Of a stretch of 40,702 nt of DNA, positions 6,201 to 40,702 are shown piece after piece; positions within the stretch are counted from its first letter, which is position 1, and each line of letters starts with the position of its first letter. Below the pieces are notes generated by a model. The model was given only the letters and a program-made list of their open reading frames with translations. It did not search any database and had not been told where the DNA came from. The position numbers were made by a program, and so were the translations under genes. The stretch is from Candidatus Omnitrophota bacterium (lineage in GTDB: Bacteria > Omnitrophota > Omnitrophia > Omnitrophales > JACQLI01), in NCBI GenBank assembly GCA_016179745.1, contig JACPCP010000004.1, forward strand, positions 1 through 40,702, in the 5' to 3' direction.

Positions 6201-9200
6201 AAAATTTGAGCGTGATAACCAACTTCCCCATGCTGACTTGGGTAACAGACCTTCCATCTTAGAATCCTTCAAACGTGCCCTCACCCTCCGCTCCGAGGCG
6301 CGGAGTAAAGTCAAGAAATCGAGGCTAGTTGTCACGATCAATACCAAGGATGTCAAAGCTATCGAGATAGATCGACCCATAAAAACGTCCGTTGCGTTAC
6401 ATTCCATTGTTCAAGGGGCTGAAGGAATTCAAAATTTTCTCCAAGCAGCGGGCGTCTATACAACGCTCACCGAACCCACAAAAGTTGTTATCCTAACTCA
6501 GGCTGGTTTAGGCTCGGCGGTTGTCGGTTTCATCGACGCTATCCCTTCAGGGAGCTTAAATAGAAGAATGATATACCTCGGACCACCTGAAGATAAGGAT
6601 ACCCTTGTTTCTAATGTCTTCGGTCTCTTAAACGCGGGGCAGGATATTGACACAGCTCAAGACGAGCAAGTACGGCGAAGCACAAGTAACGTTATTGGAG
6701 AGATACCCTCTTTTTTTAAGCTAAAGAATAATGCTGACGGCTCTCAAACTATTACTATCACACCCCGCGCCGCCCGCTCCGAGGCGCGGAGTCAGGGGGA
6801 ACGGGAATTGTTCGTGGGCGGAAATTGGAAGATGGCGGTCAATGATCCCAGGGAGGCTGCTGAGTTATTATACAGGGTTGCCAAGGAGATACGAGGGGTA
6901 GAGGAGCAGGGCAAGGTTGCGGTGATGCTGGCTCCCTCAAATGTTCATATTGGGGGCATCAATGCCCTTCTTGTTGAAGATAGAAGTCGTCAAACGGGTA
7001 GCCGGCTGTTCGGAAAAATTCTTCTCGGCGCCCAAGATGTGTCGGAGAAGCCACCCGGGGCAGCCACGGGTCAAACATCAGCAGAACAGCTTAACGCGTT
7101 AGGTGTCACGTCTGTAATCATAGGCCATTCAGAGAGGCGGCGGGGTGTTATGGCCGAGACAAGCGAACTCGTGAACAAAAAGGTGAAGCGGGCTCTGGAG
7201 GTGGGATTAGACGTTGTAGTCGCAGTCGGTGAAAGCTCGGAGGAGCGGGTAGCAGATAAGACTGTCCCGATCATACTAGATCAGACTACGAAGAGCTTGG
7301 CGGGACTTACAGCGGACCAGATGCTGCATGTTGTGGTCGCCTACGAGCCGGTTTGGGCGATCGGAACGGGGAAAACAGCGACCCCTCAAGAGGCGAACGA
7401 CATCCATCTGATCATTCGAAAAATTCTTGACAAACTGTTCGACACAAAGACCGCTCAGGAGACAAGGATCATCTATGGAGGGAGTGTCACGCCCGAAAAC
7501 ATAGCTGAGCTCATCGCACAGCCCGACATCGACGGAGCGCTGGTTGGAGGCGCTTCGCTGAAGAGTGATAAATTTGTCAGTATTGTCCGTTCTGTCCGTG
7601 CCGCCCGCTCCGAGGCGCGGATGACTACGATGACGTTTTCGGTGGATGTGGAAGACGTTCCCGTTCTGGGTGAGAGTCCGCATCAATTCACGCTTGGCGG
7701 GAGGGAAAGGGATTATAGGTTTAATGTTGCAATGTCCCGTTTTGACAATGACGAAGCGGCGAAGTTAGAGCTGGAAAATTTACGAAGGGCCATCGCAGGA
7801 ATTCTGAGAGATAAAAAGGGCTCCTTAGACTTGCTCCTCACGAATCCTGACAGACACCTTCTGAACACCTTTGATATAGAGGTGCCCGATGCATCCCTTG
7901 CTTCCTATGGCTTGTCGCTTCAAGGTAACGGCAAAGACGGGTTTGTGGGAATAATCCGTTCTCCACAGGACGGGAAAAGGATAGTTGCCAATGTCACCAT
8001 CGATTTTTCTGAAATTTCCGCGCCGGCGACCGAACCAGCCAAATTACGTCGCTCCGAGGCGAGGAGTGCGAATGCGCTCAACCAGCCGGAACCGGCGTCG
8101 CCGCAGGAACTTCGAAAACAGATTGCCGTTCTTTCCGTTGAAATAGGAAATGCGGAAGGTAACATGAATACAGAAGAAGCACGACGCAGAGCGCCGGATG
8201 GCATGGAGGAGGAGGCCGAAGAGGGAATCGCGGCAGGAGAGGGATTTCTTACGAATAAAATCGCGGCCTTGGTAGCACAAAGGAAACTGCTTGAAAAGCA
8301 ACTTGCCGAACTTACGGCAAAAACCCCTCCGACTGCTTCTACTTCGGTCAATCCTCAGGCCGCTGTCGCTTCTGAGGCATCGGTTGCCTCGATTGAAAGG
8401 AAAGAGACGCTGCCTCCAGGAACGAACCGCGCTGAGGTGCGGATGACGGAGGGGGAAAAAGGCATTGTCAGGGATTTGAGCCAGGCCATCACCGAGCTTG
8501 CGGTGAATCCGTCGCTTTTTACGCAGCAAAAAGAGGCCGAGAGAATTTTTAACGCCCTCACGAAGAAGGACCAAGTTCCGGAAAAGAGAGACGAAGCCTT
8601 GGCTGAAGCGGCCCGGCTTCTTTCCAGCTTTCAACGTCAAGGTTTTTTCCATCCGAAACCCGTTACTCTTGAGTTTATTGCTGCTCTTACTCAAGCGACA
8701 GCGCCGGTTGTTGAAGCGCCGGCGGCTGCTACTCAAGGACGTTCGGAAGCGAGGGCGGCGGCAACGGTGACAGTCGCTCTCCCCAACGGAACAGAAACAG
8801 CCGTTTCATTTACAAGCAAGGAGACTTTTGTCAAGGAGGTTAAGAAAATTTTTCCAAGAGGGCAGAAAACCGTGGTCGTCACCTTACTGCCAAGTGAATT
8901 GGTCGAGATTTCTGGTCGTGTGACCTTGGAAAAGGTTAGCGGGCCCGAAATCTTGATTACACAACTTCTGGCATTGCCAGAAATTGGCCCTGAACTTCTG
9001 AAAAAAATTCAAAGGGATAACCCAAGCCTTGGAACAAATAAAGATGCTCTAACCGCATTGGAGGAGGAGGTTTTGCTCCTGATCCTAATTGAGCGGATCG
9101 AGATCTTAGAGCCGGTGGCAGCAGAGGATACCGTTGAGCTGCTGCCATTGACGCCCGTTGTCGGGGAAGCGCTGGTGAGTGACGTAAAGGAGGAGCGGTC

Positions 9201-13987: not shown

Positions 13988-15453
13988 AGAAGAATCTGCT
14001 GCAAGGGGGGCACCTCGTGGCGGCAGCGGGGATTTTTTTTGCGATCCTCCTCCTGGTTTACCAGATTGCCGGGCGCGAAAACCACCGCTTGGACCTGTCC
14101 CGGGAAAAAATCCACTCCCTTTCCCCCGAGGGCCGGGAGGTCCTGAAGCGCCTTTCCGGGGAACGGATTACGGTCCGGGCCTTTTTTGCCGACGGCGACC
14201 CGGCACGGAAAGAGTTTGAAATGATGCTCCGGGAGGCGGCCACGCACCACCGCCGTTTTCATTTTGAATTTCTGGACCCCGACCGGTTCCCTTCCGAGGC
14301 GAAGCAATTCCGGATCGACAGTTACCGGACGACCGTGATCGATGGCGGGGGCCGTGAGGAAAGGATCCAGGGAACGGCGGAGGAGGCGGTGGTGAATGCC
14401 CTGATCCGTCTTGCCCACCCGGAGGTCCGGACGATTTGTTTCACCACGGGCCACGGCGAGCTTTCCTTTTCCGACACGGAACGGAACGGGATCTCGGAAT
14501 GGAAACAGGTCCTTGAAGACCATCAGTTTCAGGTCCGGGAGATCGATCTGGGGGGCGGTGATCTTTCTGAGTGCCGGGCGGTTGTCGTGGCCGGGCCCCA
14601 TTATGAAATGTTTCCCAAGGAAACGGAGGCGCTCCAAAAGATTGCAAAAGACGGGAAAGGGGTCCTGCTTCTGATCGATCCGATGGACCCCGGAGAGGGG
14701 AAAAGTTTTCAAGCGCTCCTCAAACCCTTCGGGATCGAGCTCGGCTCGGACGTGGTGGTCGACAAGATGAGCAAATTGGTCGGAGGGGATTATCTGATCC
14801 CCCTCGTCAGCCGGTATGCCTCTCACCCCGTGACCGCCCGTTTTAATGCCGCCACCTTTCTCCCCGTCGCCCGCACGGTGAACAAGGCCAAGGAAATTCG
14901 GCACGGGGTCTCGGTCACGGAGCTCGCCTTCACGACGCCGGGGAGCTGGGCCGAGACAGACCTGAAAAAATTGGAAAAGGGGGAAGCGGAAATTGATCCG
15001 GACTCGGACCGGCCGGGGCCCCTCCCCTTGGCGGCGGTTTCAGAAGGGAGGAAGGCCCGTGTCGCCGTGGTGGGCGACAGTGATTTTATTGCGAATGCCC
15101 ACCTCCGCCTCGCCGGGAACAAGGACCTGGCCCTCAATCTGCTGCAGTGGCTTGTCCGGGACGACCGTTGGATTTCGATCCGTCCCCCCGAGACCCGCTT
15201 TGAGCCGCTTTTCCTGAAACAGAATCAATCCGCCTGGGTGGCGGTTTTTTCAATCGGCGTCCTTCCCTTGACGGCCCTGGTCACCGGCTCTCTCGGGATC
15301 GTTCTCCGCCGCCGGGCCAATCGCCCGCCGGGCCAACCGCCCGGCACCGGGAGACCGGGCGGCCAGTCGCCGCTCGACCAACCGGCGGTGCCGGACGACC
15401 GAGCGGCCAATCGCCGCTTGACCAACCGGCGCCGGAAAAGCGTCCCGCTGTGA
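13984..15453 (+). CDS. GldG-like ABC transporter auxiliary protein
   Basis: About 489 residues from the ATG at 13984; a TTG at 13975 is in frame but upstream of the permease stop. The order is an N-terminal transmembrane helix (LVAAAGIFFAILLLVYQIAG), then the ABC_transp_aux-type extracytoplasmic region (LDLSREKIHSLSPEGREVLKRL, ICFTTGHGELSFSDTERNGIS, VVVAGPHYEMFPKETEAL, VAVVGDSDFIAN), then a second helix near residue 420 (VAVFSIGVLPLTALVTGSLG). This matches the GldG topology. The last 45 residues are an unusual Arg/Pro/Gly tail encoded by degenerate repeats (15310-15440). It is coupled on both sides by ATGA and GTGA overlaps. It probably works with the permease; no enzymatic role is assigned. 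Confidence 0.82.
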   Translation: MKKNLLQGGHLVAAAGIFFAILLLVYQIAGRENHRLDLSREKIHSLSPEGREVLKRLSGERITVRAFFADGDPARKEFEMMLREAATHHRRFHFEFLDPDRFPSEAKQFRIDSYRTTVIDGGGREERIQGTAEEAVVNALIRLAHPEVRTICFTTGHGELSFSDTERNGISEWKQVLEDHQFQVREIDLGGGDLSECRAVVVAGPHYEMFPKETEALQKIAKDGKGVLLLIDPMDPGEGKSFQALLKPFGIELGSDVVVDKMSKLVGGDYLIPLVSRYASHPVTARFNAATFLPVARTVNKAKEIRHGVSVTELAFTTPGSWAETDLKKLEKGEAEIDPDSDRPGPLPLAAVSEGRKARVAVVGDSDFIANAHLRLAGNKDLALNLLQWLVRDDRWISIRPPETRFEPLFLKQNQSAWVAVFSIGVLPLTALVTGSLGIVLRRRANRPPGQPPGTGRPGGQSPLDQPAVPDDRAANRRLTNRRRKSVPL

Positions 15454-28423: not shown

Positions 28424-29878
28424 ATGCCCGATCAAAATTTGAGCGATTTCGTGAAACGCCTCCGCAGGGAAAAAGAGCTGGTCGAAATCCAGGCCGAGGT
28501 CGATCCGGTCTTGGAGATTACCGAGATCAATGACCGGATCGTCAAACGGGAGGGCCCGGCGCTCCTTTTCCACAAGGTGAGAGGCTCCTTCTTCCCGCTG
28601 GCGATCAATCTTTTTGGATCCACTCGGAGGATGAATCTGGCCCTCGGCGTGGATGATTTAAGTGAAGTTTCGAAGAAGATTGAAAGCTTTCTCGAAGTCA
28701 AAGTGCCGGAGAAAATGACGGACAAGCTGAAACTCCTTCCGAAGCTCCACCTCCTCAGCAAGATTCCGCCGAAAAGGGTCCGGGAGGCGCCCTGTCAGGA
28801 AGTGGTGCGGCAGGAGGGGAACCTTCTTGACGAACTTCCCATCCTTCAGTGCTGGCCGGGGGACGCCGGGCGTTACATTACTTTTCCCCTGGTGATTACG
28901 AAGGACCCTGAGACGGGGAGTCGCAATGTCGGAACCTATCGAATGCAGGTCTATGACGGCCGGACCACCGGGATGCACTGGCAGATCCACAAGGACGGGC
29001 GGGGCCATTACAACCGCTGCCGGGAGAAGGGAATTCGGCGGATGGAAGTGGCCGTGGCGTTGGGTGCGGACCCGGTCTCCATGTTTTCTGCCGTTTCACC
29101 GCTTCCGCCCGGGATTGACGAATTTCTTTTCGCCGGGTTTCTCCGGGGAGAGCCGGTGGAGCTGGTGAAGTGCAAGACCGTGGATTTGGAAGTGCCGGCC
29201 CAAAGTGAGATTGTCCTGGAAGGGTATGTCGATGTGGAGGAGAAGCGGGTGGAAGGCCCCTTCGGCGACCACACCGGCTATTACTCCCTCGCCAAGGAAT
29301 TTCCGGTTTTTCACGTGGAGTGCCTCACAAGACGCCACTCGCCGATTTATCCCACGACCGTGGTGGGACGTCCGCCCATGGAAGACGCCTACCTGGCGAA
29401 GGCGATCGAACGGATTTTCCTCCCGCTCATCCGTTCCCAATTTCCTGAAATTGTCGATATGAATTTGCCGATGGAAGGGGTCTTCACGAATGCCGTTCTT
29501 GTTTCGATCAAAAAAAGTTACCCGCAGCACGCCAAAAAGGTGATGCACCTCCTTTGGGGCTTCGGCCAATTGATGTTTGAAAAAATTGTTTTGGTTTTTG
29601 ATCACGACGTCAATATCCACGACTCCCGGGAAACGGCGTGGCGGGCCTTCAACAATGTGGACCCCCAGCGGGACATCCTCTTTACCGAGGGCCCATTGGA
29701 TGAGCTGGACATCGCCGCCTCGCAGGACCTCTTTGGTTCCAAGATGGGCGTGGACTGCACCCGCAAATGGCCGGAGGAGGGGATGCGACGTCCCTGGCCG
29801 CCGGACATTGTGATGAGCGAAGAAATTCAACAGCAGGTGACGAAGCGCTGGCGGGAATACGGACTCGAACACCCGTAA
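28424..29878 (+). CDS. UbiD family decarboxylase (MqnL-like)
   Basis: A 484-residue prenylated-FMN-dependent decarboxylase of the UbiD family. Recognisable segments are FVKRLRREKELVEI, GPALLFHKVRG, FPLAINLFGSTRRM, the NVGTYRMQVYDGRTTGMHWQ active-site region, EGPFGDHTGYYSL, VVGRPPMEDAYLAKA, and the C-terminal ASQDLFGSKMGVDCT. The cofactor would be supplied by the UbiX protein encoded at 30741. Because it is clustered with mqnA and mqnC and no chorismate lyase or ubiquinone genes are seen, the likely job is decarboxylation of the prenylated dihydroxynaphthoate in futalosine-dependent menaquinone synthesis (the MqnL role). That is inferred from context. Confidence 0.9.
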   Translation: MPDQNLSDFVKRLRREKELVEIQAEVDPVLEITEINDRIVKREGPALLFHKVRGSFFPLAINLFGSTRRMNLALGVDDLSEVSKKIESFLEVKVPEKMTDKLKLLPKLHLLSKIPPKRVREAPCQEVVRQEGNLLDELPILQCWPGDAGRYITFPLVITKDPETGSRNVGTYRMQVYDGRTTGMHWQIHKDGRGHYNRCREKGIRRMEVAVALGADPVSMFSAVSPLPPGIDEFLFAGFLRGEPVELVKCKTVDLEVPAQSEIVLEGYVDVEEKRVEGPFGDHTGYYSLAKEFPVFHVECLTRRHSPIYPTTVVGRPPMEDAYLAKAIERIFLPLIRSQFPEIVDMNLPMEGVFTNAVLVSIKKSYPQHAKKVMHLLWGFGQLMFEKIVLVFDHDVNIHDSRETAWRAFNNVDPQRDILFTEGPLDELDIAASQDLFGSKMGVDCTRKWPEEGMRRPWPPDIVMSEEIQQQVTKRWREYGLEHP

Positions 29879-29883
29879 CGCTC

Positions 29884-30741
29884 ATGAAATCACTCAGGAT
29901 GTTTCTCGAGATGATCAAGTTCGAGCACTCCCTTTTTGCCCTCCCGTTCGCCTATTTGGGACTTTTTCTGGCCGAGGGGGGATGGCCCCGGGGGCCGGTT
30001 CTTTTCTGGGTGACCGTGGCCATGGTGAGCTTCCGCACCTTTGCGATGGCGATGAATCGCCTGATTGACTGCCAAATCGACGGCCAAAATCCAAGGACCC
30101 AAATGCGGGCCCTCCCGCAGAAAAAATTGACGCCCCGCTTTGTCGTTGGGATTTCCTTCTTTTCTCTTGCCGTTTTTGAGGCCAGTGCCTGGATTTTGGG
30201 GCCGCTTTGTTTTTCTTTGAGTCCGATTCCGGTCTTTCTGGCCGGGATTTATCCCACGCTTAAAAGATTCACTTGGCTTTCGCACGCCGTGCTCGGTATC
30301 ATACTGGGCATTGCGCCTTACGGGGCGTGGGTGGCGAGCCGGGGAGAATTTTCCTGGGTTCCCGGACTTCTCCTCATCGGCGTAGCAAACTGGGTGGCGG
30401 GCTTCGATATCCTTTACTCTCTGCAGGACTTGGAGTTTGATCAAAAATCGAAACTCCATTCGGTCCCGGTCCGTTTCGGGAGAGAGCAGGGGTTGGGGAC
30501 GGCGGCTTTCCTTCATTTCATCGCATTACTTGCCTGGAGCGGAGCTGGCCGGTTGGCGGATTTAGGCTGGATTTACGCCCTGGGAATCGGTCTGGTGGGT
30601 ATTTTTCTCATTCGGGAACACTTTCTGATCCGCCGGTTCGGTCTTGCCAGGATTGAGGAGGCGTTTTTTTCGATGAATGTGGGTGTCAGCTTTGCGGTTT
30701 TTTTGGCCACGGTGCTTGACCTTCAATGGAGGAAATTTTGA
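29884..30741 (+). CDS. UbiA family prenyltransferase (MqnP-like)
   Basis: A 285-residue polytopic membrane enzyme with about eight spans. The two Asp-rich prenyl-diphosphate motifs are visible: NRLIDCQIDGQNPRTQMRALPQKKL and DILYSLQDLEFDQKSKLHSVPVRFGREQG. The start MKSLRMFLEMIKFEHSLFALPFAYLG is typical. The frame is open further upstream, but the ATG at 29884 is 5 bp after the UbiD-like stop. In this cluster it should attach the polyprenyl tail to 1,4-dihydroxy-6-naphthoate (the MqnP role) before the UbiD-like decarboxylation. 4-hydroxybenzoate is the alternative substrate. Its TGA overlaps the next ATG (TGATG). Confidence 0.9.
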   Translation: MKSLRMFLEMIKFEHSLFALPFAYLGLFLAEGGWPRGPVLFWVTVAMVSFRTFAMAMNRLIDCQIDGQNPRTQMRALPQKKLTPRFVVGISFFSLAVFEASAWILGPLCFSLSPIPVFLAGIYPTLKRFTWLSHAVLGIILGIAPYGAWVASRGEFSWVPGLLLIGVANWVAGFDILYSLQDLEFDQKSKLHSVPVRFGREQGLGTAAFLHFIALLAWSGAGRLADLGWIYALGIGLVGIFLIREHFLIRRFGLARIEEAFFSMNVGVSFAVFLATVLDLQWRKF

Positions 30742-31370
30742 TGAAGCCTTACGTGGTGGGGATCACCGGGGCGAGCGGGGCCGTTTACGGGATCCGTTTT
30801 GTCCAGATTCTGGCCGAGCTTGGGCACGACTTGGCGCTGGTCGTTTCCGATGCCGCCCGTCTTGTGATTCAAGAAGAACTCCAGGTGACCCTGGGAAACC
30901 TCACCGATAAAGAATCCTTCCGGACTTTTTTCGAGCCGCACATTTTGGAACGCCTCACCCTTTACTCCTCAAAGGATTTCACGGCGCCGATCGCAAGCGG
31001 TTCCTACCCCACGCAAGGAATGGTGATTATTCCGTGCAGCACGGGAACGCTCGGCCACGTGGCGTCTGGGGCGATCGTCAATTTGGTTCACCGGGCCGCC
31101 GAGTGCCACTTAAAAGAAGGGAGGCGACTCGTGGTGGTTCCGAGGGAAACCCCCCTGAGCGTGATTCAGCTTGAAAACATGCTGAAGCTCGCCCGGGCCG
31201 GCGTGCGGGTGATTCCGGCAAGCCCGGCTTTTTATTCCGGCGCCCGGACCCTTCAGGACCTGGTGGATTTCGTGGTCGGAAAGGTTTTGGATTCTCTTGA
31301 AATTCTTCACGCTGTCTACCCCCGTTGGACGGGAAAGACGTGGAAATCTTCCGAGGCGGTGTCCTCATGA
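30741..31370 (+). CDS. ubiX: Flavin prenyltransferase, UbiX family (MqnM-like)
   Basis: A 209-residue enzyme that joins dimethylallyl phosphate to FMN, making the prenyl-FMN cofactor of UbiD. Motifs are VVGITGASGAVYGIRFVQIL, VIIPCSTGTLGHVASGAIVNLVHRAAE and RRLVVVPRETPLSVIQLENMLKLARAGVRVIPASPAFY. A GGAGG Shine-Dalgarno lies 8 nt upstream of the ATG, within the UbiA-like gene end. The stop overlaps the mqnA start (ATGA). Placement beside the UbiD-like gene is as expected. Confidence 0.94.
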   Translation: MKPYVVGITGASGAVYGIRFVQILAELGHDLALVVSDAARLVIQEELQVTLGNLTDKESFRTFFEPHILERLTLYSSKDFTAPIASGSYPTQGMVIIPCSTGTLGHVASGAIVNLVHRAAECHLKEGRRLVVVPRETPLSVIQLENMLKLARAGVRVIPASPAFYSGARTLQDLVDFVVGKVLDSLEILHAVYPRWTGKTWKSSEAVSS

Positions 31371-32224
31371 AGTCCAAAACAGCGGTCCGTCTCCGGGTGG
31401 GCCGGATTCGCTACACAAACGTCCTGCCTTTTTACCACCCGAATCTTTCCGGAAGCGAATCGCACGGCTTTGAGACGGTTGAAGTCAACGGCTCACCGAC
31501 GGAATTGAACCGGAAAATGAGGGAAGGCGAAATCGACCTGGCCCCCATTTCCTCCCTTGAGTATCTCAATCACCCAAACGATTATTTTCTGCTTCCCGGC
31601 CTTTGCATCGGCTCCCGGGATTTTTCGGCCAGCGTGCTCCTCTTTTCCCGGGAAAGGATCGAGGGCCTGAACGGCACCGAGATTTCGCTTTCCGAAGAAA
31701 GCCTAAGTGCTGCGGCGCTCCTCAAAATCCTTCTCAAGTTTAAATTTCAATTTGAGAATTCATTTCGAGTTGAGAAGTCAGATCCCCTGACCATGCTGTC
31801 CCATTCGAAGGCGTGCCTTGTCATCGGAGACGACGCCTTACTTTTCCGTCCCGAGGAATTCATTTACAAGACGGACCTGAGCCAGCTCTGGTGGGATTGG
31901 ACGGGAAAACCCTTTTGCTTTTCGGTGTGGGCGGTCCGGAGACCTTATTACGAGGCGCATCGGCCGGAGGTGCTCGGGTTTTACGAAAACCTCAAAAACA
32001 ACCTGGAACGGAATCTTGGCGACCTTGAGAAACTTCTCAAGGAAGCGCTGGGCTTGACGCCGGCCGACGAAAGATTTCCGGCGCTCTTTAGTTACCTTTT
32101 CAATCTGAGTTACGGGCTGGACCCTGCCATGCGGGAGGGGCTCGAACATTTTTACAAACTGGCGCACCGGCTTGGGATTTCGCCCGAGGCGGATCAATTG
32201 GAGTTTATCGATGGATCGGTTTGA
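31367..32224 (+). CDS. mqnA: Menaquinone biosynthesis protein MqnA
   Basis: A 285-residue MqnA/MqnD-family protein with a periplasmic-binding-protein-like fold but no signal peptide. The N-terminus MKSKTAVRLRVGRIRYTNVLPFYHP is the MqnA signature (G-I-x-Y-x-N-x-x-P). EGEIDLAPISSLEYL follows, with VIGDDALLF and DLSQLWWDWTGKPFCFSVWAVRR in the second lobe. MqnA is chorismate dehydratase, making 3-enolpyruvylbenzoate at the entry of the futalosine route. ATGA-coupled to ubiX, and its end overlaps mqnC by 14 bp. Confidence 0.92.
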   Translation: MKSKTAVRLRVGRIRYTNVLPFYHPNLSGSESHGFETVEVNGSPTELNRKMREGEIDLAPISSLEYLNHPNDYFLLPGLCIGSRDFSASVLLFSRERIEGLNGTEISLSEESLSAAALLKILLKFKFQFENSFRVEKSDPLTMLSHSKACLVIGDDALLFRPEEFIYKTDLSQLWWDWTGKPFCFSVWAVRRPYYEAHRPEVLGFYENLKNNLERNLGDLEKLLKEALGLTPADERFPALFSYLFNLSYGLDPAMREGLEHFYKLAHRLGISPEADQLEFIDGSV

Positions 32225-33296
32225 CGAAATTCTGGCAAAGCGGCTGGAAGGCGAAAGGCTTTCCGTGGAGGAGACGGTCGAGCTATTTTCCTGCGATTTG
32301 CTGAGGCTTGGCAGGGCGGCCGATCAGCTCACCCGCCGGCTTCACCCGGGTCCGGTCCGCACCTTTATCGTGGACCGCAACGTGAGTTATACGAATGCCT
32401 GCATCGTGGATTGCGATTTCTGCGCCTTCTACCGCCGCCCGGGTGACGTCGAGGCCTATACCCTTTCGATGGAGGAGATCCTCGGAAAAATCAGGGAGCT
32501 CGCAGAAATCGGCGGCACGCAAGTTTTGATCCAGGGCGGGGTCAATCCCAAGCTGCCGCTCGGCTTTTATCTCGACATGATCCGTTCGATCCGGAGAGAG
32601 TTCCCGCAAATTATGATCCATTCCTTTTCGGTCGTGGAGCTGGATTTCCTCGCCAAGAAAGAGCGGATGCCGCTCAAAGAATTACTCCTCCAATTGAAGG
32701 AAGCCGGCCTGAATTCGATTCCGGGCGGCGGGGCGGAGATCTTGGTGGAACGGGTCCGGGACAAGATCAGCGCCAAGAAGATTGATTCCGACGGCTGGAT
32801 CAACTTTATGCGGACGGCCCACGAGGCGGGCCTCCGTTCCACGGGCACGATGGTTTTTGGCCATGTTGAAACCCTCGAAGAAAGGGTTCTGCACCTGGCA
32901 AGATTGCGGGAGCTTCAGGATGAGACGCACGGTTTTCGTGCCTTTATTGGCTGGACGCTATCTCCGAGCGGAACCCCCCGGATGAGCCAGTTCCGTCAGG
33001 CGGGCGGGGAGGATTATCTCAGGACACTGGCCGTGAGCAGGCTCTTTCTCGACAATTTCGAAAATATTCAGTCCGGGTGGCTCACGGAAGGAGTCAAACT
33101 GGGGCAGATTGCGCTGGCTTTCGGCGCCAATGATATGGGCGGCACCCTTCTCGAAGACAAGGTTTTGGAGCCGACCGGGATCAACGCCTCGGGCACCCGG
33201 AAGGACGATTTGATCCGATTGATCCGGGAAGCGGGCTATGTCCCGGCCCAGCGCAACACCAATTACGAAATTCTCAAAGTTTATCATCCCAATTGA
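32211..33296 (+). CDS. mqnC: Cyclic dehypoxanthinyl futalosine synthase (radical SAM)
   Basis: A 361-residue radical SAM enzyme that cyclises dehypoxanthinyl futalosine in the futalosine pathway. The [4Fe-4S] site is Cys64-x3-Cys68-x2-Cys71 in ACIVDCDFCAFYRRPGD, the Tyr-containing form typical of MqnC. TQVLIQGGVNPKLPLGFYLDM, NSIPGGGAEIL, STGTMVFGHVET and NDMGGTLLEDKVL follow, and the C-terminal QRNTNYEIL is characteristic. The ATG at 32211 lies inside mqnA; the frame is open further up but without family similarity. Aminofutalosine synthase (mqnE), the hydrolase (mqnB) and mqnD are not in the window. Confidence 0.94.
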   Translation: MDRFDEILAKRLEGERLSVEETVELFSCDLLRLGRAADQLTRRLHPGPVRTFIVDRNVSYTNACIVDCDFCAFYRRPGDVEAYTLSMEEILGKIRELAEIGGTQVLIQGGVNPKLPLGFYLDMIRSIRREFPQIMIHSFSVVELDFLAKKERMPLKELLLQLKEAGLNSIPGGGAEILVERVRDKISAKKIDSDGWINFMRTAHEAGLRSTGTMVFGHVETLEERVLHLARLRELQDETHGFRAFIGWTLSPSGTPRMSQFRQAGGEDYLRTLAVSRLFLDNFENIQSGWLTEGVKLGQIALAFGANDMGGTLLEDKVLEPTGINASGTRKDDLIRLIREAGYVPAQRNTNYEILKVYHPN

Positions 33297-33970
33297 TGGA
33301 GCTCACCCTGGCCCCGTCCCGTGACAATCTTGCCTCGCCGGCGAAGGAAACGATCCGTGAAATTTTTGATGCCGTGGCCCCCCGTTATGACGGGATCAAC
33401 CGCCTCCTCAGTTTCCATCTGGATGAAGGGTGGCGCTCCCGGGCGGGGGTGGGGACGGGAAAATTTCTGGGCCAGTTCCTCAAAAAACAAACCTGGCGCC
33501 TCGCCGCCGGCATTGATTTTTCCGGTCCGATGCTGGGCCGGGCCCGCCAAAGTCTTCCGGGAGATTGCCGGCTCGTCCAGGCGGATATCCACGACATTCC
33601 CTTCGAAAGCGAAGCCTTCGATCTGGTGGTTTCGAGTTTCACCTTGAGAAGCGTCAAAGACCGCCCTCGTTTCTTCAAGGAAGTTAGGCGGGCCCTCCGA
33701 CCCAGCGGGAAGGCGGCGTTTCTTTGCTTGACCCGTCCCACGTCCGTGCTCGGCCGAATGCTTTACGCCCCCTACTTGAAATTTTATCTTCCTTTCATCG
33801 GCGGACTCATTTCCGAAAACCGGACAGCCTACCAATTTCTTTCCCAGTCGATTCAAAATTTCCCCGCCCCCCCTGAAATCGGGAGAGAGCTCGAATCGGC
33901 CGGGTTTCACACGATTCAAATCCGTCCTTTGACCTTTGGAATTTCTACCCTGATTCAGGCCCGAAAATGA
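33296..33970 (+). CDS. UbiE/MenG-like quinone methyltransferase with shortened motif I
   Basis: A 224-residue SAM methyltransferase of the UbiE/MenG kind, expected to methylate demethylmenaquinone. The conserved start IFDAVAPRYDGINRLLSFHLDEGWRSR is followed almost at once by VGTGKFL and GIDFSGPMLGRARQ. In the family about 15 more residues, with the strand VLDLACG, lie between the WR and GTG. Later motifs (DIPFESEAFDLVVSSFTLRSVKDR, LRPSGKAAFLCLTRP) are normal. The gap is in frame and removes the first beta strand of the SAM site, so activity is doubtful. The ATG overlaps the mqnC stop (TGATG), and its own TGA overlaps ridA (ATGA). A TTG at 33293 is a possible alternative start. Confidence 0.85.
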   Translation: MELTLAPSRDNLASPAKETIREIFDAVAPRYDGINRLLSFHLDEGWRSRAGVGTGKFLGQFLKKQTWRLAAGIDFSGPMLGRARQSLPGDCRLVQADIHDIPFESEAFDLVVSSFTLRSVKDRPRFFKEVRRALRPSGKAAFLCLTRPTSVLGRMLYAPYLKFYLPFIGGLISENRTAYQFLSQSIQNFPAPPEIGRELESAGFHTIQIRPLTFGISTLIQARK

Positions 33971-34428
33971 GCCTGGCGCTTCCGGAAACGCTTCGTCGAT
34001 GGGGGTTGGAACTGCCGCCCATCCCCAAACCCGTTGGCGTCTATCAGCCGGTTGTCCGGGCCGGCGGATTTGTTTTCCTGAGCGGACAAATCTCAAGAGA
34101 TTCAAAAGGAAAGGTTCTGGCCGGGAAAGTGGGAAGCGAATTGACGGTGGAAGAGGGAAAACAAGCCGCCCGGTGGGCGGCGCTTCAAGCCGTCAGCTTG
34201 ATTGACTCCGAGGTGGGTCCGGACCGGCTGGAACAGATTGTCCGGATGGCCGGCTTTGTCCAGTCTGCCCCGGATTTTATTGGACAGAGTGACGTGATGA
34301 ATGCCGCCTCGGAACTTTTAATCGAACTTTTTGGCGAAAAGGGCCGCCACGTTCGGACGTCGGTGGGGGTCCCGAGCCTTCCCTTGAACGCCGCCGTCGA
34401 AATTGAGCTGACTTTGAAAGTCCAATGA
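33967..34428 (+). CDS. RidA family (YjgF/YER057c/UK114) protein
   Basis: A 153-residue protein of the RidA family, longer N-terminal form. Motifs are YQPVVRAGGFVFLSGQISRDSKGKVL, EEGKQAARWAALQAVSLI and RHVRTSVGVPSLPLNAAVEIELTLKV, ending with the usual trimer strand. RidA hydrolyses reactive enamine/imine intermediates from PLP enzymes; not all subfamilies have this activity. The family's key Arg is in the HVRTSVGV segment. Coupled by ATGA on both sides, between the methyltransferase and the CPBP protease. Confidence 0.9.
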   Translation: MSLALPETLRRWGLELPPIPKPVGVYQPVVRAGGFVFLSGQISRDSKGKVLAGKVGSELTVEEGKQAARWAALQAVSLIDSEVGPDRLEQIVRMAGFVQSAPDFIGQSDVMNAASELLIELFGEKGRHVRTSVGVPSLPLNAAVEIELTLKVQ

Positions 34429-35900
34429 GACCCATTACCAAGACGGTTCTCCAGTTTGCGGCCGGGTTTTTGGTGGTTTTGGCGGTGAGCGCCGTCCTGG
34501 CGCCCTGGCTTTACACCTTTCTTCCCTTTAAATTTGATCGCATCTTGCGCCGATTAATTATGATTGGAACGATTGCGCTTTCCCTCTGGCTTTTAAGGGT
34601 CCGTCGGGAGAGCCTGGGCCGAATGGGGCTCGGGTGGGGCCCTTCGGCGAAGCGGCTCTTTGGGACGGGATTTCTTGTGGGGACTTTCCTTGTCGTGCTG
34701 ATCACTCTGGTGCAGTGGGGGCTCGGGGCCCGAATCTGGAGGGTCCACGAGACCGACGGGTGGCATTGGATCGGGCTTTTCTTTAAGGGGTTTGGGGCAG
34801 GGGTTCTCATTGGAACGGTTGAGGAATTTTTCTTTAGGGGTTTTTTGTTTCTCACCCTGAAGGATCTTTGGAATACGAAAGGAAGCCTGGTGGTGACGAG
34901 TTTGATTTACGCCCTGGTCCATTTTTTTCCGAAGCAAAAACCGGTGGTTGGGGCAGAGCCGACCGTCGTGGACAGCCTCCGGATTTTGGGATCGTTCGGG
35001 TCCTCCTTCCGGGGACACCCTGAAATTTGGGCGCCGGTCGCAGGGCTTTTTTTATTCGGTCTTCTGCTTTCTTTCGCTTTTCTTCGGACCCGGTCGCTTT
35101 TCCTTCCGATCGGAATCCACAGCGGCTGTATTTTTGGGTTAAAGATGAACCGGCGGTTTTTCCCGGACTTTTCGGAGAAGATGGGATTTCTGAGCGGCAC
35201 GAAGAATCTCTATGACGGGATGGCGGGCCTGACCGTGCTGGCGCTTTTTGCCGGGATCCTGGGATGGACCCTCCGAGGTCGGTCTGTGGAAAAATCCAAC
35301 CGGCCTGGGAAAAAATGGGGGACGGCCTGCTTTGTTTTCCTCTTCTCTATTTTTTTGCTGTGCCCGCCGCCGGTCTGGGCCAAAAAGCAGGATGCCGGTA
35401 AAAAATTTGTCTATTCCTTTGCGGAAAATCTGGGGACGGCGGAGGCGCTCAGGGTTTCCAAAGAACAAATGTTTCCGGGCGTGTGGAAGGACGAACGATT
35501 TCATTTTGAGGGGCTGCCGGACTCTGCGGATATTCTCGTGGACCGGAAGGCCCTGGTGGAGCGCAAGCCCGAGACCGTGGTGTGGTTTCCGGTGGGGCCG
35601 GAGCAAGATGCCTCGCTGACCTACACCGGGGTCCCGATTGGACGACGGCTTCGCTTCCTGTTTATCCTTTCAGGGGATTGGGATCTCACGAAGAAGGAGA
35701 AGCCTTTGCCGCTCTTGCTGGAGATCTGGATCGGAAAAAAGAAATTGTTTGAAACGCAAATCAGCACTCCGGGCTGGAAGGAAAAGACCCTCGATCTGAC
35801 GCTGCCTTATCTCCTCCAAAGAAGATTCCGGTTTACCGTGAAGGCGAGGACGCTGGGGCCCGAGTGGGACAATCTGATCTTCTTCGGTTATCTGGAGTGA
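34425..35900 (+). CDS. CPBP family intramembrane metalloprotease with extra C-terminal domain
   Basis: A 491-residue protein. The first about 300 residues are a polytopic CPBP (Abi/Rce1-like) protease: the EExxxR motif at Glu133-Glu134 to Arg138 (VEEFFFRGFLFLTL), a second His motif in SLIYALVHFFPK, and a third in PIGIHSGCIFG. After a last membrane span at about residues 305-325 comes a soluble domain of some 165 residues beginning KKQDAGKKFVYSF, rich in beta strands (LRFLFILSGDWDL, LLLEIWIGKKKLF, FRFTVKARTLG). I do not recognise it. The membrane topology would place it outside the cytoplasm. The ATG overlaps the ridA stop. The function may be membrane-protein cleavage. Confidence 0.82.
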   Translation: MRPITKTVLQFAAGFLVVLAVSAVLAPWLYTFLPFKFDRILRRLIMIGTIALSLWLLRVRRESLGRMGLGWGPSAKRLFGTGFLVGTFLVVLITLVQWGLGARIWRVHETDGWHWIGLFFKGFGAGVLIGTVEEFFFRGFLFLTLKDLWNTKGSLVVTSLIYALVHFFPKQKPVVGAEPTVVDSLRILGSFGSSFRGHPEIWAPVAGLFLFGLLLSFAFLRTRSLFLPIGIHSGCIFGLKMNRRFFPDFSEKMGFLSGTKNLYDGMAGLTVLALFAGILGWTLRGRSVEKSNRPGKKWGTACFVFLFSIFLLCPPPVWAKKQDAGKKFVYSFAENLGTAEALRVSKEQMFPGVWKDERFHFEGLPDSADILVDRKALVERKPETVVWFPVGPEQDASLTYTGVPIGRRLRFLFILSGDWDLTKKEKPLPLLLEIWIGKKKLFETQISTPGWKEKTLDLTLPYLLQRRFRFTVKARTLGPEWDNLIFFGYLE

Positions 35901-36844
35901 GGCGATACAAAAATCTTCGTCCCCTGGTCGTGCTCCCGATTCTCTTCTCTTTTTTAAGCGCCTGCCCCGGTCCTCGGAAAAATTTCCCGATCATCGACGC
36001 TCATGTCCACATTCAATCTCTTCGGGAAGCCCCGCCGCTTCTGGGGGCGATGGACCGGCTCGGGATTGAAAAAACCATTCTCCTTGCAAGTCCCGCTGCC
36101 ACCTTCGACCCCCGGTCCGGGGGGTTCCGGGATTATGAGGCCAATAACCGGGCAGTGCTGGAAATCGCAAGGCGATACCCCGATCGCTTTCTCCCCTTCG
36201 TCACCCTCGATCCTCAGGACCCGCTGAAACTGGAGAAATTCAAACAGGATTTGGCCAACGGAGCGCAAGGGTTGAAACTTTACTCCGGCCATCGAATTTT
36301 TCACGAGCGGTCCCTCGACGACCCCGGCATGGAGGAGATCTACGCCTTTTGCGAGAGTTACAAAATCCCGGTCATTTTTCACGTCAACGCCGGATTTTTT
36401 GAGGAGGAATTTCACGCGGTCCTGAGAAAATTTCCACGAATGAAGGTTGTCTGCCCTCATTTTTGTCTCTCCACAATTGCCACGGACCGTTTTGAGCGCC
36501 TGATGGAGAACCATCCGAATCTTTATACCGATTTGAGCTTCGGACCCCGGAAAAACCTGGAGACGGCCCTGGAACGGTTTTCCCGTAATCCGGAGAAATA
36601 TCGGCGGCTCGTCCTGAAGTATCAGGACCGGATTTTGTTCGGCACAGATGCCGTGGTGACCTCTCAGCCGGGAAGAGGCGAGGAGTGGCTCATGGAACTG
36701 GGGCGAATCTACCGAAGCCTTTTAGAAGAAAAGGATTATGACGATATACGTTATGCTCGAGGACGGCGGAAAGGACTGTATCTTCCAGCTCAAATCCTGA
36801 GGAAAATTTACTATAGCAATATATATCAATTTATAGCAAAATGA
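35897..36844 (+). CDS. Amidohydrolase-family lipoprotein
   Basis: A 315-residue amidohydrolase-2 type protein. The GTG start overlaps the CPBP stop (GTGA). The N-terminus is a lipoprotein signal: basic VRRYKNLR, a hydrophobic core, and the lipobox LSAC with Cys23. The metal motif DAHVHIQ is at about residue 36, the second His is in VIFHVNAGF, the third in VVCPHFC, and the catalytic Asp in LFGTDAV. These match metal-dependent hydrolases of the amidohydrolase-2 (ACMSD-like) clan, which are usually cytoplasmic, so membrane anchoring is notable. The substrate is unknown. It ends about 100 bp before the cysteine-rich protein gene. Confidence 0.85.
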   Translation: MRRYKNLRPLVVLPILFSFLSACPGPRKNFPIIDAHVHIQSLREAPPLLGAMDRLGIEKTILLASPAATFDPRSGGFRDYEANNRAVLEIARRYPDRFLPFVTLDPQDPLKLEKFKQDLANGAQGLKLYSGHRIFHERSLDDPGMEEIYAFCESYKIPVIFHVNAGFFEEEFHAVLRKFPRMKVVCPHFCLSTIATDRFERLMENHPNLYTDLSFGPRKNLETALERFSRNPEKYRRLVLKYQDRILFGTDAVVTSQPGRGEEWLMELGRIYRSLLEEKDYDDIRYARGRRKGLYLPAQILRKIYYSNIYQFIAK

Positions 36845-36907: not shown

Positions 36908-36938
36908 GCCTCAGCAGATAAGCTTTATGTGCTGAGGC
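36908..36938 (+). promoter_or_regulatory. Long hairpin before the cysteine-rich protein gene
   Basis: Outer arms GCCTCAGCA (36908-36916) and TGCTGAGGC (36930-36938) are perfectly complementary. After one G-G mismatch, ATAA and TTAT pair again around a 3-nt GCT loop, for 13 base pairs in all. It is followed by AAAAAGC, not a T-run, on the coding strand, so it is not a typical terminator. It lies 14 nt before the ATG at 36953. It may be an operator next to the -10 or a translational control hairpin. Confidence 0.6.
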
Positions 36939-36952
36939 AAAAAGCGATTTAG

Positions 36953-39900
36953 ATGCCAACGCAACGGAAAATGGAAGAGCCGTTTTGCAAAGGAGCAACC
37001 CTTTTTCTCTTTTTCTGTGCGTTTCTAATAAGTTGGCCTGCCGTAAGTTCTGCCGAGGAAAAAAGTCCCACCGATAAGCGTCAGGCAAAGACTTCCGATG
37101 CGCTGTTTCCCCTCCCTGCTGCCTTGACGACTGATATTGCCGAGGAGGACCTGCTTTCCGCTTTGAAGGCGCTGGAGGCCGAGGAAGTGGAGTGCACCCT
37201 GAGCTCGGATTGCAAGGACAACAACCTTTGCGATGGTGAGGAGATCTGTTCGGGCGGGAAATGCGTTGAAGGCCCACTACTGGATTGTGATGACCGGGAG
37301 CTTTGCACGACCGATAGCTGCAATCCCCTCACGGGCTGCCTCCATCAGAATAACTCCCTCTCCTGTGACGACCAAAATACCTGTTCCTCTGGAGACACCT
37401 GTAGCGGCGGGAAATGCAAGGGAACGAGCACGAAGATTTGTAATGACGGCAATGTCTGCACGACCGACAGCTGCGACGCCCAATCGGGCAACTGCCAGTT
37501 CGTGAATAACAGCCTCAGCTGCGATGACAAAAATTCGTGCACGAGCGCTGATGTATGCGTCAACGGGAAGTGCTCGGGAGCAGGCGTGCAGTGCGTGGAA
37601 GATCAAGTGTGCGACCCTGCGTCCGGCGTCTGCCAGTGCCCCGCCGGTGAATTTTTCTGCGCTCCCCTTGAGAGCTGCGTCCCGAACGGGAGCGCCTGCA
37701 GCTGCAAAAGCGATCTGGCCTGCAGCGATCAGGATGTTTGCAACGGAACGGAGCGATGCGTGTCGGGGCAGTGTGCGAAAGGCACGGCCTTAAGCTGTAA
37801 CGACGGGAATGACTGCACGACCGATAGCTGCAACCCGGCGGCCGGTTGTTCCAATACGGCCCACAGCGAAGTGTGCGATGACCAGAACGCCTGCACGACC
37901 GGTGACGTTTGTTCAGGGAAGGCCTGTTCCGGGACGGCCGTAGTGTGCGCCGGGGGACAGCAGTGCAATACGGGTGATGGAAGCTGCCAGTGTCCCTCGG
38001 GAGAAACCTTCTGCAACGCCCTTAATCGCTGCGTCAAGAATCCCTCAGAGTGTGTCTGTTCTTCAAATAGCGACTGCAATGACGGCGATGTCTGCAATGG
38101 AAACGAGACTTGTGTCAATGCTCAATGCGTAAAAGGAACGGCCTTGAGTTGTGGTGACGGCAATGGCTGCACTACTGATTCCTGTCACCCGACTGCCGGC
38201 TGTCTTCACGAGAATAACAGTTTGTCCTGCAATGATCAGAATACCTGCACTTCCAATGATGTCTGCTCCGGGGGCCAATGCACGGGCAGTGCCACACTGG
38301 ACTGTAGCGACGGCAACGTCTGCACGACCGATGGCTGCGACCCGTCCGGCGGTTGCACCCACACTTCCAACAGCAGCTCTTGCGAGGATGGAAACTACTG
38401 CACGGTGGACGACGCTTGTTCGGGCGGAAGCTGTCAAGCCGGGAGCGCAAGAGATTGCTCGGACAGCGTGGCTTGCACCGACGATTCCTGCGACGAATCA
38501 GCCGATGAGTGCGTCCACGAAGGGGACAATTCGAAGTGCGAAGACGGCAATGCCTGCACGTCCAATCTTTGCACCGCCAGCGGCTGTGGTTTTGAGAGCA
38601 TCGCCAATTGCTGTGAAACCGACAATGACTGTACGGGCGGTCTTTATTGTATTTCCAGTCAGTGCCAAACCTGCCCGAATCCGGTGGTGACCGTGACTGG
38701 CGGGGGATCGGCAAAAGTCGGAGAGTCCGTGACCACCACGGCGACAACCACCTGCCCGAGCGGGACCCCTTCCGGGGAAGAAGAGCGGGAAGCGGCGGCC
38801 GAGCGTTCCTGGATCAATCAGGCCTTTGGATTGAAAACGGCCTGGGCAGAAACAGAGAAAGAGGAAAATTTTAAGATTCAGAACGTTACAGTCCAAAAGG
38901 CAGAGACGAGCCAACGAGGGAATCGGGAAACCATTCAACGGGTCATTCAGAGAACGGATCGGTTTGTTGAAGACCGGGGAAAAAGAGAAGTCATCACGTC
39001 ATCTTCATCGGCCGGCAGGCCCCAGACATCCAGGATCCGGGAGGGTTACGATTTTGACCGTTGCGATATTGCCGATGTGAATATTTCCGGAGACGTCGCA
39101 ACTTACACCTGCCGTCGAGTAGGCACCTGTCAAATCGGAGCCAAGGGTCAGAAGTCGGGCAAGGGTAGCTCGACCCCGGTCACGATCGAGTGCCGGCAGG
39201 GCTGTTCGACCGATGCGGATTGCGATGACGGCAAGTTTTGCACGGAGGGTGACGCCTGCTCCAACGGCGTCTGCGGGCTTCCAACCGATCGTGACTGTGA
39301 CGACAGCGACAATTGCACAGCCGATTCTTGCAACGAAAATTCAGATCAATGTGATCATGCGCCCGTGCAGTGCGATCTGGGGCGGGTCTGTCTTCCTTCA
39401 GAGGGCATCTGCGGTTGCCCTGATGGGACCGGGTTCTGCGTGGCGACGCAAGACTGCCGGCCTTCTCAGGAGTGCGCAGGCGTGCCCGTGTCTTGCGAGA
39501 ACAACAGGGATTGCTTTGATGGAAATGACTGCACGGATGATAAGTGCGAGGATGACCGCTGTGTCCACTCCTTCAACACGGCTTCGTGCAGCGACGGAAA
39601 ATTTTGCACGGAGGGGGATCGATGTGACAAAGGTCAATGCCAATCGGGCGCTGACCGGGATTGCTCGGACCGTGTTGTTTGCACCGAGGATTCTTGCGAT
39701 GAAACGGCGAATCAATGTCTGCACCGCCAGGAGGACAAACTTTGCCTCGCCGGACAGCGTTGTGATCAAGACCGGGGCTGTGTGTGCGAGCCGGGACAGG
39801 TTTTATGCGAAAAGATAGGACGTTGCCAAAAACCGAACGTTCCCTGTGAATGCGCAAGTGAGGCGGACTGCAGCGATGGGAATGCGTGCACCGACGACCG

Positions 39901-40702
39901 GTGCGATGACGGGGAGTGTAAATACACGTTTAATACGGATCCCTGCGATGACGGCAAGTTTTGCACGGTCGGCGAACAACAATGCCGGGAGGGTCAGTGC
40001 AGAGGCGGCCGTGACCGGGATTGTTCCGATTCCATTGACTGCACTAGAGATTCCTGCAAGGAGTCGAACGACAGCTGTCTTCATACCGAAGAGGACGAAC
40101 TCTGTCTCACCGGTCTGGCCTGCAGCGCTTCGAAAGGATGCGTCTGCCCCGACGGAAAGGAATTCTGCTCTACCCGGGATCGGTGTCAGACGATCGGCAA
40201 ACCCTGTTCCTGCGAAAGCGACTCGGAGTGCAATGATCAAGATTCCTGCACGGACGACCGGTGTGTGGAGGGGGAGTGCGTCCGGCAGGCAAACACCGCC
40301 GTCTGTGATGACGGTGACCCCTGCACGGTCAACGACGCTTGCCGGGACCGGAAATGCCAGCAGGGCGTGAAGAAGCAATGCGATCAAGGAAAAATCTGCC
40401 GCTCGTCCGACGGCGAATGTGTCTGCCCCAGCGGCCAGGAATTTTGCGAAACCACCGGCGATTGCCGCCCCCCGGCGCTCTGCATCGAGAAACCTCCTGT
40501 CGAATGTCTGACCCCAGCCCAATGTAATGATGAAAACCTTTGCACCGATGACCAGTGTGTTGAAGGCCGGTGCCGCCACGAGAATAACTCCGCCTCCTGC
40601 AGTGACCAGAATCTCTGCAACGGAGAAGAGAAATGCCAGGACGGTGAATGTCTGAAGGGGGACCCCCTCCAGTGCGCCGATGACAAGCCCGGCACCCGGG
40701 AC
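36953..40702 (+). CDS. Giant secreted cysteine-rich repeat protein, 3' end beyond the window
   Basis: An uninterrupted frame of 1250 codons from ATG 36953 to the last base; the stop is outside the window. Residues 1-34 form a signal peptide: MPTQRK, a hydrophobic core GATLFLFFCAFLISW, and a cleavage site SSA-EEK. A Glu/Ala-rich segment is followed by dozens of short cysteine repeats of the form CxDGNxCTxDxC...GxC, with CxCPxGExFC variants. They resemble Myxococcus-type Cys-rich or Dickkopf/EB-like modules. Residues about 574-746 are a repeat-poor, Ser/Thr/Glu-rich interruption (VTVTGGGSAKVGESVTTTATT). A 25-bp stretch at 39221-39245 recurs exactly at 39944-39968, a sign of internal duplication. 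Numerous disulphides and Asp/Asn loops suggest a calcium-binding or adhesive surface protein. The partner is unknown. A second ATG at 36971 is possible. Confidence 0.88.
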   Translation, partial: MPTQRKMEEPFCKGATLFLFFCAFLISWPAVSSAEEKSPTDKRQAKTSDALFPLPAALTTDIAEEDLLSALKALEAEEVECTLSSDCKDNNLCDGEEICSGGKCVEGPLLDCDDRELCTTDSCNPLTGCLHQNNSLSCDDQNTCSSGDTCSGGKCKGTSTKICNDGNVCTTDSCDAQSGNCQFVNNSLSCDDKNSCTSADVCVNGKCSGAGVQCVEDQVCDPASGVCQCPAGEFFCAPLESCVPNGSACSCKSDLACSDQDVCNGTERCVSGQCAKGTALSCNDGNDCTTDSCNPAAGCSNTAHSEVCDDQNACTTGDVCSGKACSGTAVVCAGGQQCNTGDGSCQCPSGETFCNALNRCVKNPSECVCSSNSDCNDGDVCNGNETCVNAQCVKGTALSCGDGNGCTTDSCHPTAGCLHENNSLSCNDQNTCTSNDVCSGGQCTGSATLDCSDGNVCTTDGCDPSGGCTHTSNSSSCEDGNYCTVDDACSGGSCQAGSARDCSDSVACTDDSCDESADECVHEGDNSKCEDGNACTSNLCTASGCGFESIANCCETDNDCTGGLYCISSQCQTCPNPVVTVTGGGSAKVGESVTTTATTTCPSGTPSGEEEREAAAERSWINQAFGLKTAWAETEKEENFKIQNVTVQKAETSQRGNRETIQRVIQRTDRFVEDRGKREVITSSSSAGRPQTSRIREGYDFDRCDIADVNISGDVATYTCRRVGTCQIGAKGQKSGKGSSTPVTIECRQGCSTDADCDDGKFCTEGDACSNGVCGLPTDRDCDDSDNCTADSCNENSDQCDHAPVQCDLGRVCLPSEGICGCPDGTGFCVATQDCRPSQECAGVPVSCENNRDCFDGNDCTDDKCEDDRCVHSFNTASCSDGKFCTEGDRCDKGQCQSGADRDCSDRVVCTEDSCDETANQCLHRQEDKLCLAGQRCDQDRGCVCEPGQVLCEKIGRCQKPNVPCECASEADCSDGNACTDDRCDDGECKYTFNTDPCDDGKFCTVGEQQCREGQCRGGRDRDCSDSIDCTRDSCKESNDSCLHTEEDELCLTGLACSASKGCVCPDGKEFCSTRDRCQTIGKPCSCESDSECNDQDSCTDDRCVEGECVRQANTAVCDDGDPCTVNDACRDRKCQQGVKKQCDQGKICRSSDGECVCPSGQEFCETTGDCRPPALCIEKPPVECLTPAQCNDENLCTDDQCVEGRCRHENNSASCSDQNLCNGEEKCQDGECLKGDPLQCADDKPGTRD

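Follow-up and report, generated by a model that had tools for sequence, protein, structure and literature searches.

The right-hand edge of contig C1, which belongs to a metagenome-assembled genome (MAG) from the phylum Omnitrophota, carries the 5′ part of a gene for a large cysteine-rich repeat protein. The contig was analysed in its entirety (40,702 bases) and is referred to here as the window. The open reading frame (ORF) runs on the + strand from an ATG at 36953 to the last base of the window (40702), a span of 1,250 codons without a stop, and contains repeats of the Dicty_CTDC family (PF00526, E = 6.8e-13). Relatives carry Cys-rich genes at the same chromosomal position, or slot, and on balance we read the protein, from its sequence and surroundings, as secreted and as having a structural or adhesive part in an exopolysaccharide (EPS) coat or matrix. 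The host is an uncultured groundwater-type bacterium, represented by a genome of 1.5 Mb in 25 contigs that is 79% complete.

A cysteine-rich frame at the contig edge

Because the window is the whole contig, its edge is the contig edge and the frame is cut at its 3′ end by the assembly. The ATG is immediately preceded by an in-frame TAG (36950–36952). An earlier note on this DNA had drawn attention to the lack of a stop over 3,750 bases, and this was confirmed: stop-free runs in dinucleotide-matched random sequence averaged 160 codons and reached at most 302 (300 trials), which rules out a chance ORF. Foreign or eukaryotic contamination was also ruled out, by bacterial synteny, by a matching GC content (57%, with neighbours at 52–60%) and by relatives with a gene at the same place; for the MqnC-type gene nearby, the relatives that carry a name were Candidatus Omnitrophota MAGs.

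Cysteine accounts for 172 of the 1,250 residues (13.8%), compared with 0.2–1.8% in seven other genes of the window. A total of 26 modules fit the pattern C-x-[DN]-x3-C-[TNSA], and PF00526 matched eight stretches (48.6 bits against a curated cut-off of 27), bearing out the description of the product as cysteine-rich and built of repeats; the cut-off of the myxo_disulf_rpt model TIGR02232 (20.8) was not reached by the C1 part on its own. Secretion, also claimed in the earlier note, is upheld by a probable Sec signal peptide at aa 1–34 (36953–37054, ending in FLFFCAFLISWPAVSSA and followed by EE), in which a hydrophobic core (hydrophobicity 1.79 over 19 aa) precedes a plausible cleavage site between VSSA and EE. 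Shortly after it lies FPLP (aa 52–55; 37106–37117), an instance of an [ILVF]P-x-P motif that recurs in the slot proteins of relatives.

The remainder of the frame is divided into two repeat blocks separated by a Cys-poor insert. In block 1 (37193–38662), four-Cys modules of 25–27 aa (C-x-D-G-N-x-C-T-T-D-S-C...) alternate with modules of ∼42 aa (CQCPxGxxFC...), forming a super-repeat of ∼119 aa with a spacing of 354–357 nt. The insert, previously described as repeat-poor, is real (aa ∼571–750; 38663–39202) and is distantly related to inserts in two other sequences discussed below, the C20 part and L081. Block 2 (39203–40702) runs past the contig end and contains both copies of the 25-bp exact duplication that had been reported (39221–39245 and 39944–39968), the longest exact duplication within the frame. 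Cysteine codons vary between TGC and TGT among the copies (16 and 10, respectively, at module position 1) while the residue is retained, which indicates that the cysteines are kept at the protein level. An AlphaFold2 (AF2) model of a 177-aa super-repeat segment (aa 250–426) had a pLDDT of 92 and a pTM of 0.56, i.e. the small hairpins are ordered and their overall arrangement is uncertain. No relatives in the PDB were found by sequence, nor by fold for the super-repeat model (best Foldseek E 0.39).

As a separate observation, the Cys-poor inserts of the window (38663–39202), L007 (∼3700–3950, − strand) and L081 (∼14299–14742) share a segment of the kind GLKTAWAETEKEE, EKAAWAAVQDD or GVKNAYAADEEE, which resembles a signal-peptidase-type site in mid-protein.

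Continuation on a second contig and the slot in relatives

Within the host genome PF00526 matched at two places only, the C1 frame and the end of contig C20. There, on the minus strand, the repeats come in at the contig edge, first in a 327-codon frame and then in a 1,827-codon frame that ends at a stop, ∼2,036 codons from the contig edge. This part scored 71.4 bits with PF00526 (eight stretches) and also matched DUF4215 and TIGR02232 (89.1 bits against a cut-off of 20.8). The left part of a conserved gene order lies at the end of C1 and its right part at the start of C20, in agreeing orientations; single contigs of three relatives (L082, L086 and L196) carry both parts, and gene order makes the adjacency of C1 and C20 very likely. 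That they encode one polypeptide is likely, though less so; the product of the combined gene would have at least ∼3,290 aa (or there would be two tandem Cys-rich genes). The earlier description of a giant protein is sustained by this continuation with the same repeats. The earlier note had held that a stop directly beyond the window, with no homologous repeats elsewhere, would weaken that description; homologous repeats do occur elsewhere, so the objection does not apply.

The C1 frame might alternatively stop within the assembly gap, with a second Cys-rich gene beginning there, an arrangement that we consider distinctly less probable than a single gene. It is kept alive by the slot of L196, where a pair of Cys-rich ORFs of 446 and 564 aa lie in tandem, and it is compatible with the undefined size of the gap and with the way in which C20 starts inside repeats with a change of frame. 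Against it, L081 (identical to G027) has a single continuous frame of 3,209 codons at the same slot, and no signal peptide was seen in the C20 part beyond the edge of the contig.

Related loci were gathered using the MqnC-type neighbour as query, as the Cys-rich protein itself gave no related loci. In L082, L086 and L196 the order on single contigs is menaquinone genes, UbiE, a YjgF-like gene, a CPBP protease, the Cys-rich gene and Wzy_C, followed by GGDEF (− strand) and TPR genes; an alpha/beta hydrolase lies between Wzy_C and the GGDEF/TPR genes in L082 and L086. A Cys-rich gene occupies the slot between the CPBP and GGDEF genes in L084, L087, L088 and L207 as well, and L205 has the same right flank. 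Measured as stop-to-stop frames, the slot genes comprise 486 aa in L082, 498 in L084, 251 in L086, 324 in L087, 269 in L088 and 328 in L207, in addition to the tandem pair of L196. Four others are cut by a contig end, namely those of L073 (at least 826 aa), L081 (3,209 codons when followed over the complete contig L043), L085 (at least 1,082 aa) and L206, and in L205, where the right side is visible, the gene encodes at least 1,542 aa. L073, L081 and L085 are identical to G001, G027 and G006 and were not double-counted. L200 and L203 have low-Cys proteins at the slot, which is rearranged in other families of the order.

The slot protein thus evolves fast, from 251 to >3,200 aa and with different repeat types (CTDC, TIGR02232/DUF4215 or other Cys-rich), while its chromosomal place is kept. 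The rapid evolution asserted beforehand is supported by this turnover and by exact duplications of 562 bp (internal to L081/G027) and 99 bp (on C20); the former suggests that expansion is recent or ongoing, or is partly an effect of assembly. The Cys-rich relatives that had been suspected in Omnitrophota were found, and the repeats also match TIGR02232, a family named after the Myxococcota. Few genomes of the phylum have PF00526 itself (7 of 384), and six of the seven belong to the same order. Of 13 slot proteins, 10 have an [ILVF]P-x-P motif after the signal peptide, compared with 2.3 expected in shuffles; as the pattern was picked after looking at the sequences and the rows are related, it is treated as a lead.

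Two slot proteins have features of their own. In L077 (14002–15996) the protein has a coiled coil, a VPLP motif and a FecR domain, behind which just one TIGR02232-like repeat is kept, and looks like an intermediate or degenerate member. In L205 (9300–13925, − strand), (GD)n runs of >100 residues lie between the Cys modules, possibly an acidic or metal-binding linker or an assembly artefact.

Polysaccharide neighbourhood and candidate function

Downstream of the Cys-rich gene, C20 carries in order Wzy_C, an alpha/beta hydrolase, an opposite-strand HAMP-GGDEF gene, TPR, an outer-membrane barrel and a fused Poly_export/Wzz/tyrosine-kinase gene, so that a cyclic di-GMP cyclase gene lies among the polysaccharide genes. 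This flank matched TIGR01007 (193 bits against a cut-off of 108), PF02563, PF02706, PF04932 and PF13505; PrsT-like and TIGR03016/EpsL-like matches were weak, and XrtA-specific models stayed below cut-off. Upstream, all on the + strand, lie menaquinone-type genes that form the syntenic left flank (28424–33970; UbiD, UbiA, a UbiX-like flavoprotein, a CofH/MqnC-type radical SAM protein and UbiE) and a CPBP/Rce1-like intramembrane protease (34425–35900), likewise a syntenic neighbour, with an EExxxR-type motif (EEFFFRG), an LVHF motif and a fused secreted-type C-terminal domain. An amidohydrolase-like gene (35864–36844) separates the protease from the Cys-rich gene; the relatives listed showed no such gene there.

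The EPS coat or matrix reading rests on the extracellular nature of related repeats together with this downstream cluster. The gene product would be a very large secreted protein (at least ∼3,290 aa if C1 and C20 carry parts of a single gene) in which Cys-poor inserts break up small Cys modules of two kinds, Dicty_CTDC and myxo_disulf_rpt. It would be exported through Sec by its N-terminal signal, and the modules would form a chain of small beta-hairpin units, with a local fold predicted at high confidence and with presumed disulphides and a presumed rod shape. Its final place would be outside the cell in the EPS matrix or coat, for which the Wzy_C, TPR, outer-membrane barrel and Poly_export/Wzz/tyrosine-kinase proteins would make and export the polysaccharide. 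Tandem duplication would rapidly alter length and repeat type, the chromosomal slot remaining in place.

Several points weigh against this reading. Conservation of the slot with EPS genes is positional evidence only; the adjacency of C1 and C20 is based on synteny, not reads; and the frame change on C20, probably an assembly error, sits within near-identical repeats (the 99-bp exact copies) near the edge. AF2 gave no usable model of the Cys-poor insert from a two-row alignment (pLDDT 32). No known ligand-binding domain was found by Pfam in the C1 or C20 parts, and the C20 C-terminus (...CKCHACECGDVGTTCYSVS, then the stop) has no membrane or sorting anchor, the maximum 19-aa hydropathy in the last 100 aa being 0.18. 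In addition, neither DsbB (none in 46 genomes of the order) nor VKOR (absent from the host's own 79%-complete genome, present in 8 of the 46) was found here, nor was a PF13462 DsbA-like protein in the same incomplete genome, in which PF01323 was not searched for; disulphides would therefore have to form without a known enzyme. This sparse record of DsbB and VKOR contrasts with the secreted proteins of several genomes of the order, in which cysteines number from dozens to hundreds.

These negative results would also fit cysteines that bind metal or carry out redox chemistry instead of forming structural disulphides. We regard this as very unlikely: the families that the modules match are described as extracellular repeats rich in disulphides, VKOR is present in some relatives, and the DsbA search was confined to one family in an incomplete genome.

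The earlier note had proposed an adhesin or an attachment protein for predation. A long Cys-rich stalk with a binding tip, similar to TraA, could hold an epibiotic cell to its prey or host, and this would be in keeping with the giant ORFs and predatory or parasitic traits described in Omnitrophota (PMC10066038), with TraA as a surface receptor with Cys-rich repeats (PMC3325183) and with the rapid repeat turnover at the slot. However, PA14 was matched neither by the C1 part (E up to 1) nor by the C20 part (E up to 0.01), although the gap between them could hide one, and no other ligand-binding Pfam domain was identified. The C-terminal anchor that was to be sought is absent at the C20 end, PF00526 is rare in the phylum, and the neighbours point to polysaccharide or matrix and not specifically to predation. 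A role of this kind in contact with host or prey is accordingly held to be unlikely.

We infer possible roles for Wzy_C or the CPBP protease toward the Cys-rich protein. In one account the protein is a dedicated substrate, glycosylated by Wzy_C in the manner of PglL and/or processed or sorted by the CPBP protease, with [ILVF]PxP as the recognition signal. At the slot Wzy_C was found only beside a Cys-rich gene (L082, L086, L196, L205 and C20), and PglL-type enzymes often adjoin their target proteins (PMC3643930). In Myxococcus, TraA is among the surface proteins that are sorted by CPBP proteases (PMC11980579), the CPBP protein here has weak MrtS/MrtC similarity, and the motif recurs in slot proteins. 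But Wzy_C matched the general PF04932 only, with no PglL-specific model and no NCBIfam match, and, as it lies in an EPS cluster, a polymerase or ligase role suffices. The CPBP protein fell far below the NCBIfam Mrt equivalog cut-offs (best MrtS, 37.3 against 130 bits; MrtC, 23.4 against 195), its gene also occurs in the order where the Cys-rich gene is absent, and no C-terminal tripartite tag was found. Dedicated handling of this kind is unlikely. Still more tentative is an undescribed surface-matrix system of the order, in which a fast-remodelled Cys-rich protein, marked by [ILVF]PxP instead of a C-terminal tag, would be handled by CPBP and/or Wzy_C and assembled with the EPS of the locus, with disulphides formed without DsbB or VKOR.

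Further observations concern the neighbouring genes and the rest of the window. The C-terminal domain of the CPBP protein is a separate gene in L073 (8768–9349) and resembles the ends of proteins in L196 (3097–4203) and L087 (7638–8879); related slot genes were noted in L073, L087, L196 and L207, and the L073 and L196 proteins had no Pfam match. A hairpin with a perfect 9-bp stem lies just 5′ of the start codon of the Cys-rich gene (36908–36938, + strand; fold z −2.97), without a T-run or a terminator match. At 3298–10335 (+ strand) the window encodes a secreted-type protein of 2,345 aa, in which a triosephosphate isomerase domain (aa 1172–1432) is embedded among other segments separated by 11 RSEAR-like motifs (RSEAR, RSEVR, RAEVR, RSELR); it looks like a polyprotein or a fusion with recurrent linkers. 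Four RSEAR-like motifs were also present in a 1,411-codon frame of L079 (2–4234).

Comparison with known systems

These results provide a candidate coat or matrix protein, together with likely partner genes, for an uncultured phylum, and place “Dictyostelium” CTDC repeats in the body of a giant bacterial protein. They describe a conserved slot at which large repeat proteins grow, shrink and switch repeat type while the neighbours stay, and raise the question of how proteins with hundreds of cysteines mature where DsbB was not found and VKOR mostly not.

The closest likeness by repeat family is to the Dicty_CTDC proteins of Dictyostelium (ecmA, ecmB, psiA and psiF), which have many copies of the same 24-aa repeat and are listed as extracellular or matrix proteins (PMC4931340). 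The present protein is instead bacterial, mixes in TIGR02232/DUF4215 repeats and Cys-poor inserts, has no PA14 match and lies in an EPS neighbourhood. The myxo_disulf_rpt repeats of Myxococcota (TIGR02232/DUF4215) are shared with the C20 part and with the slot proteins of L082 and L084. TraA of Myxococcus (TIGR04201 repeats) likewise combines a signal peptide with Cys-rich tandem repeats, is surface-located and CPBP-processed (PMC3325183, PMC11980579), and its repeats have been proposed to form a rigid cell-surface stalk; its authors noted that the PF00526 repeats of Dictyostelium resemble those of TraA (PMC3325183). Here CTDC repeats dominate, and the MYXO-CTERM signature motif, transmembrane (TM) helix and Arg-rich tail were not found at the C20 C-terminus. 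By the known signals, the lack of a C-terminal TM segment or tag sets the protein apart from MYXO-CTERM and PEP-CTERM substrates alike.

The flank resembles XrtA/PEP-CTERM EPS clusters in its PrsT-like TPR protein, TIGR03016/EpsL-like outer-membrane protein, Poly_export/Wzz/tyrosine kinase and Wzy_C. It differs in that equivalog cut-offs were mostly missed, a CPBP protease is present, the tail is not of the PEP-CTERM type and no exosortase (PF09721) was found in the host's 79%-complete genome; 11 of 46 genomes of the order have one. The giant ORFs described for other Omnitrophota, alongside predatory traits, are similar in phylum, in being large and probably extracellular, and in their proposed adhesion or coat role (PMC10066038). 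Those exceed 20 kb and often have TM helices, whereas the gene described here is ∼10 kb and its product Cys-rich; apart from the signal peptide, neither the C1 part nor the C-terminal end on C20 showed a TM segment. While the kinds of repeat are already known (Pfam Dicty_CTDC and myxo_disulf_rpt/DUF4215), the giant bacterial CTDC architecture is new, as is a conserved, fast-remodelled slot that heads an EPS-export cluster with a CPBP protease in place of an exosortase.

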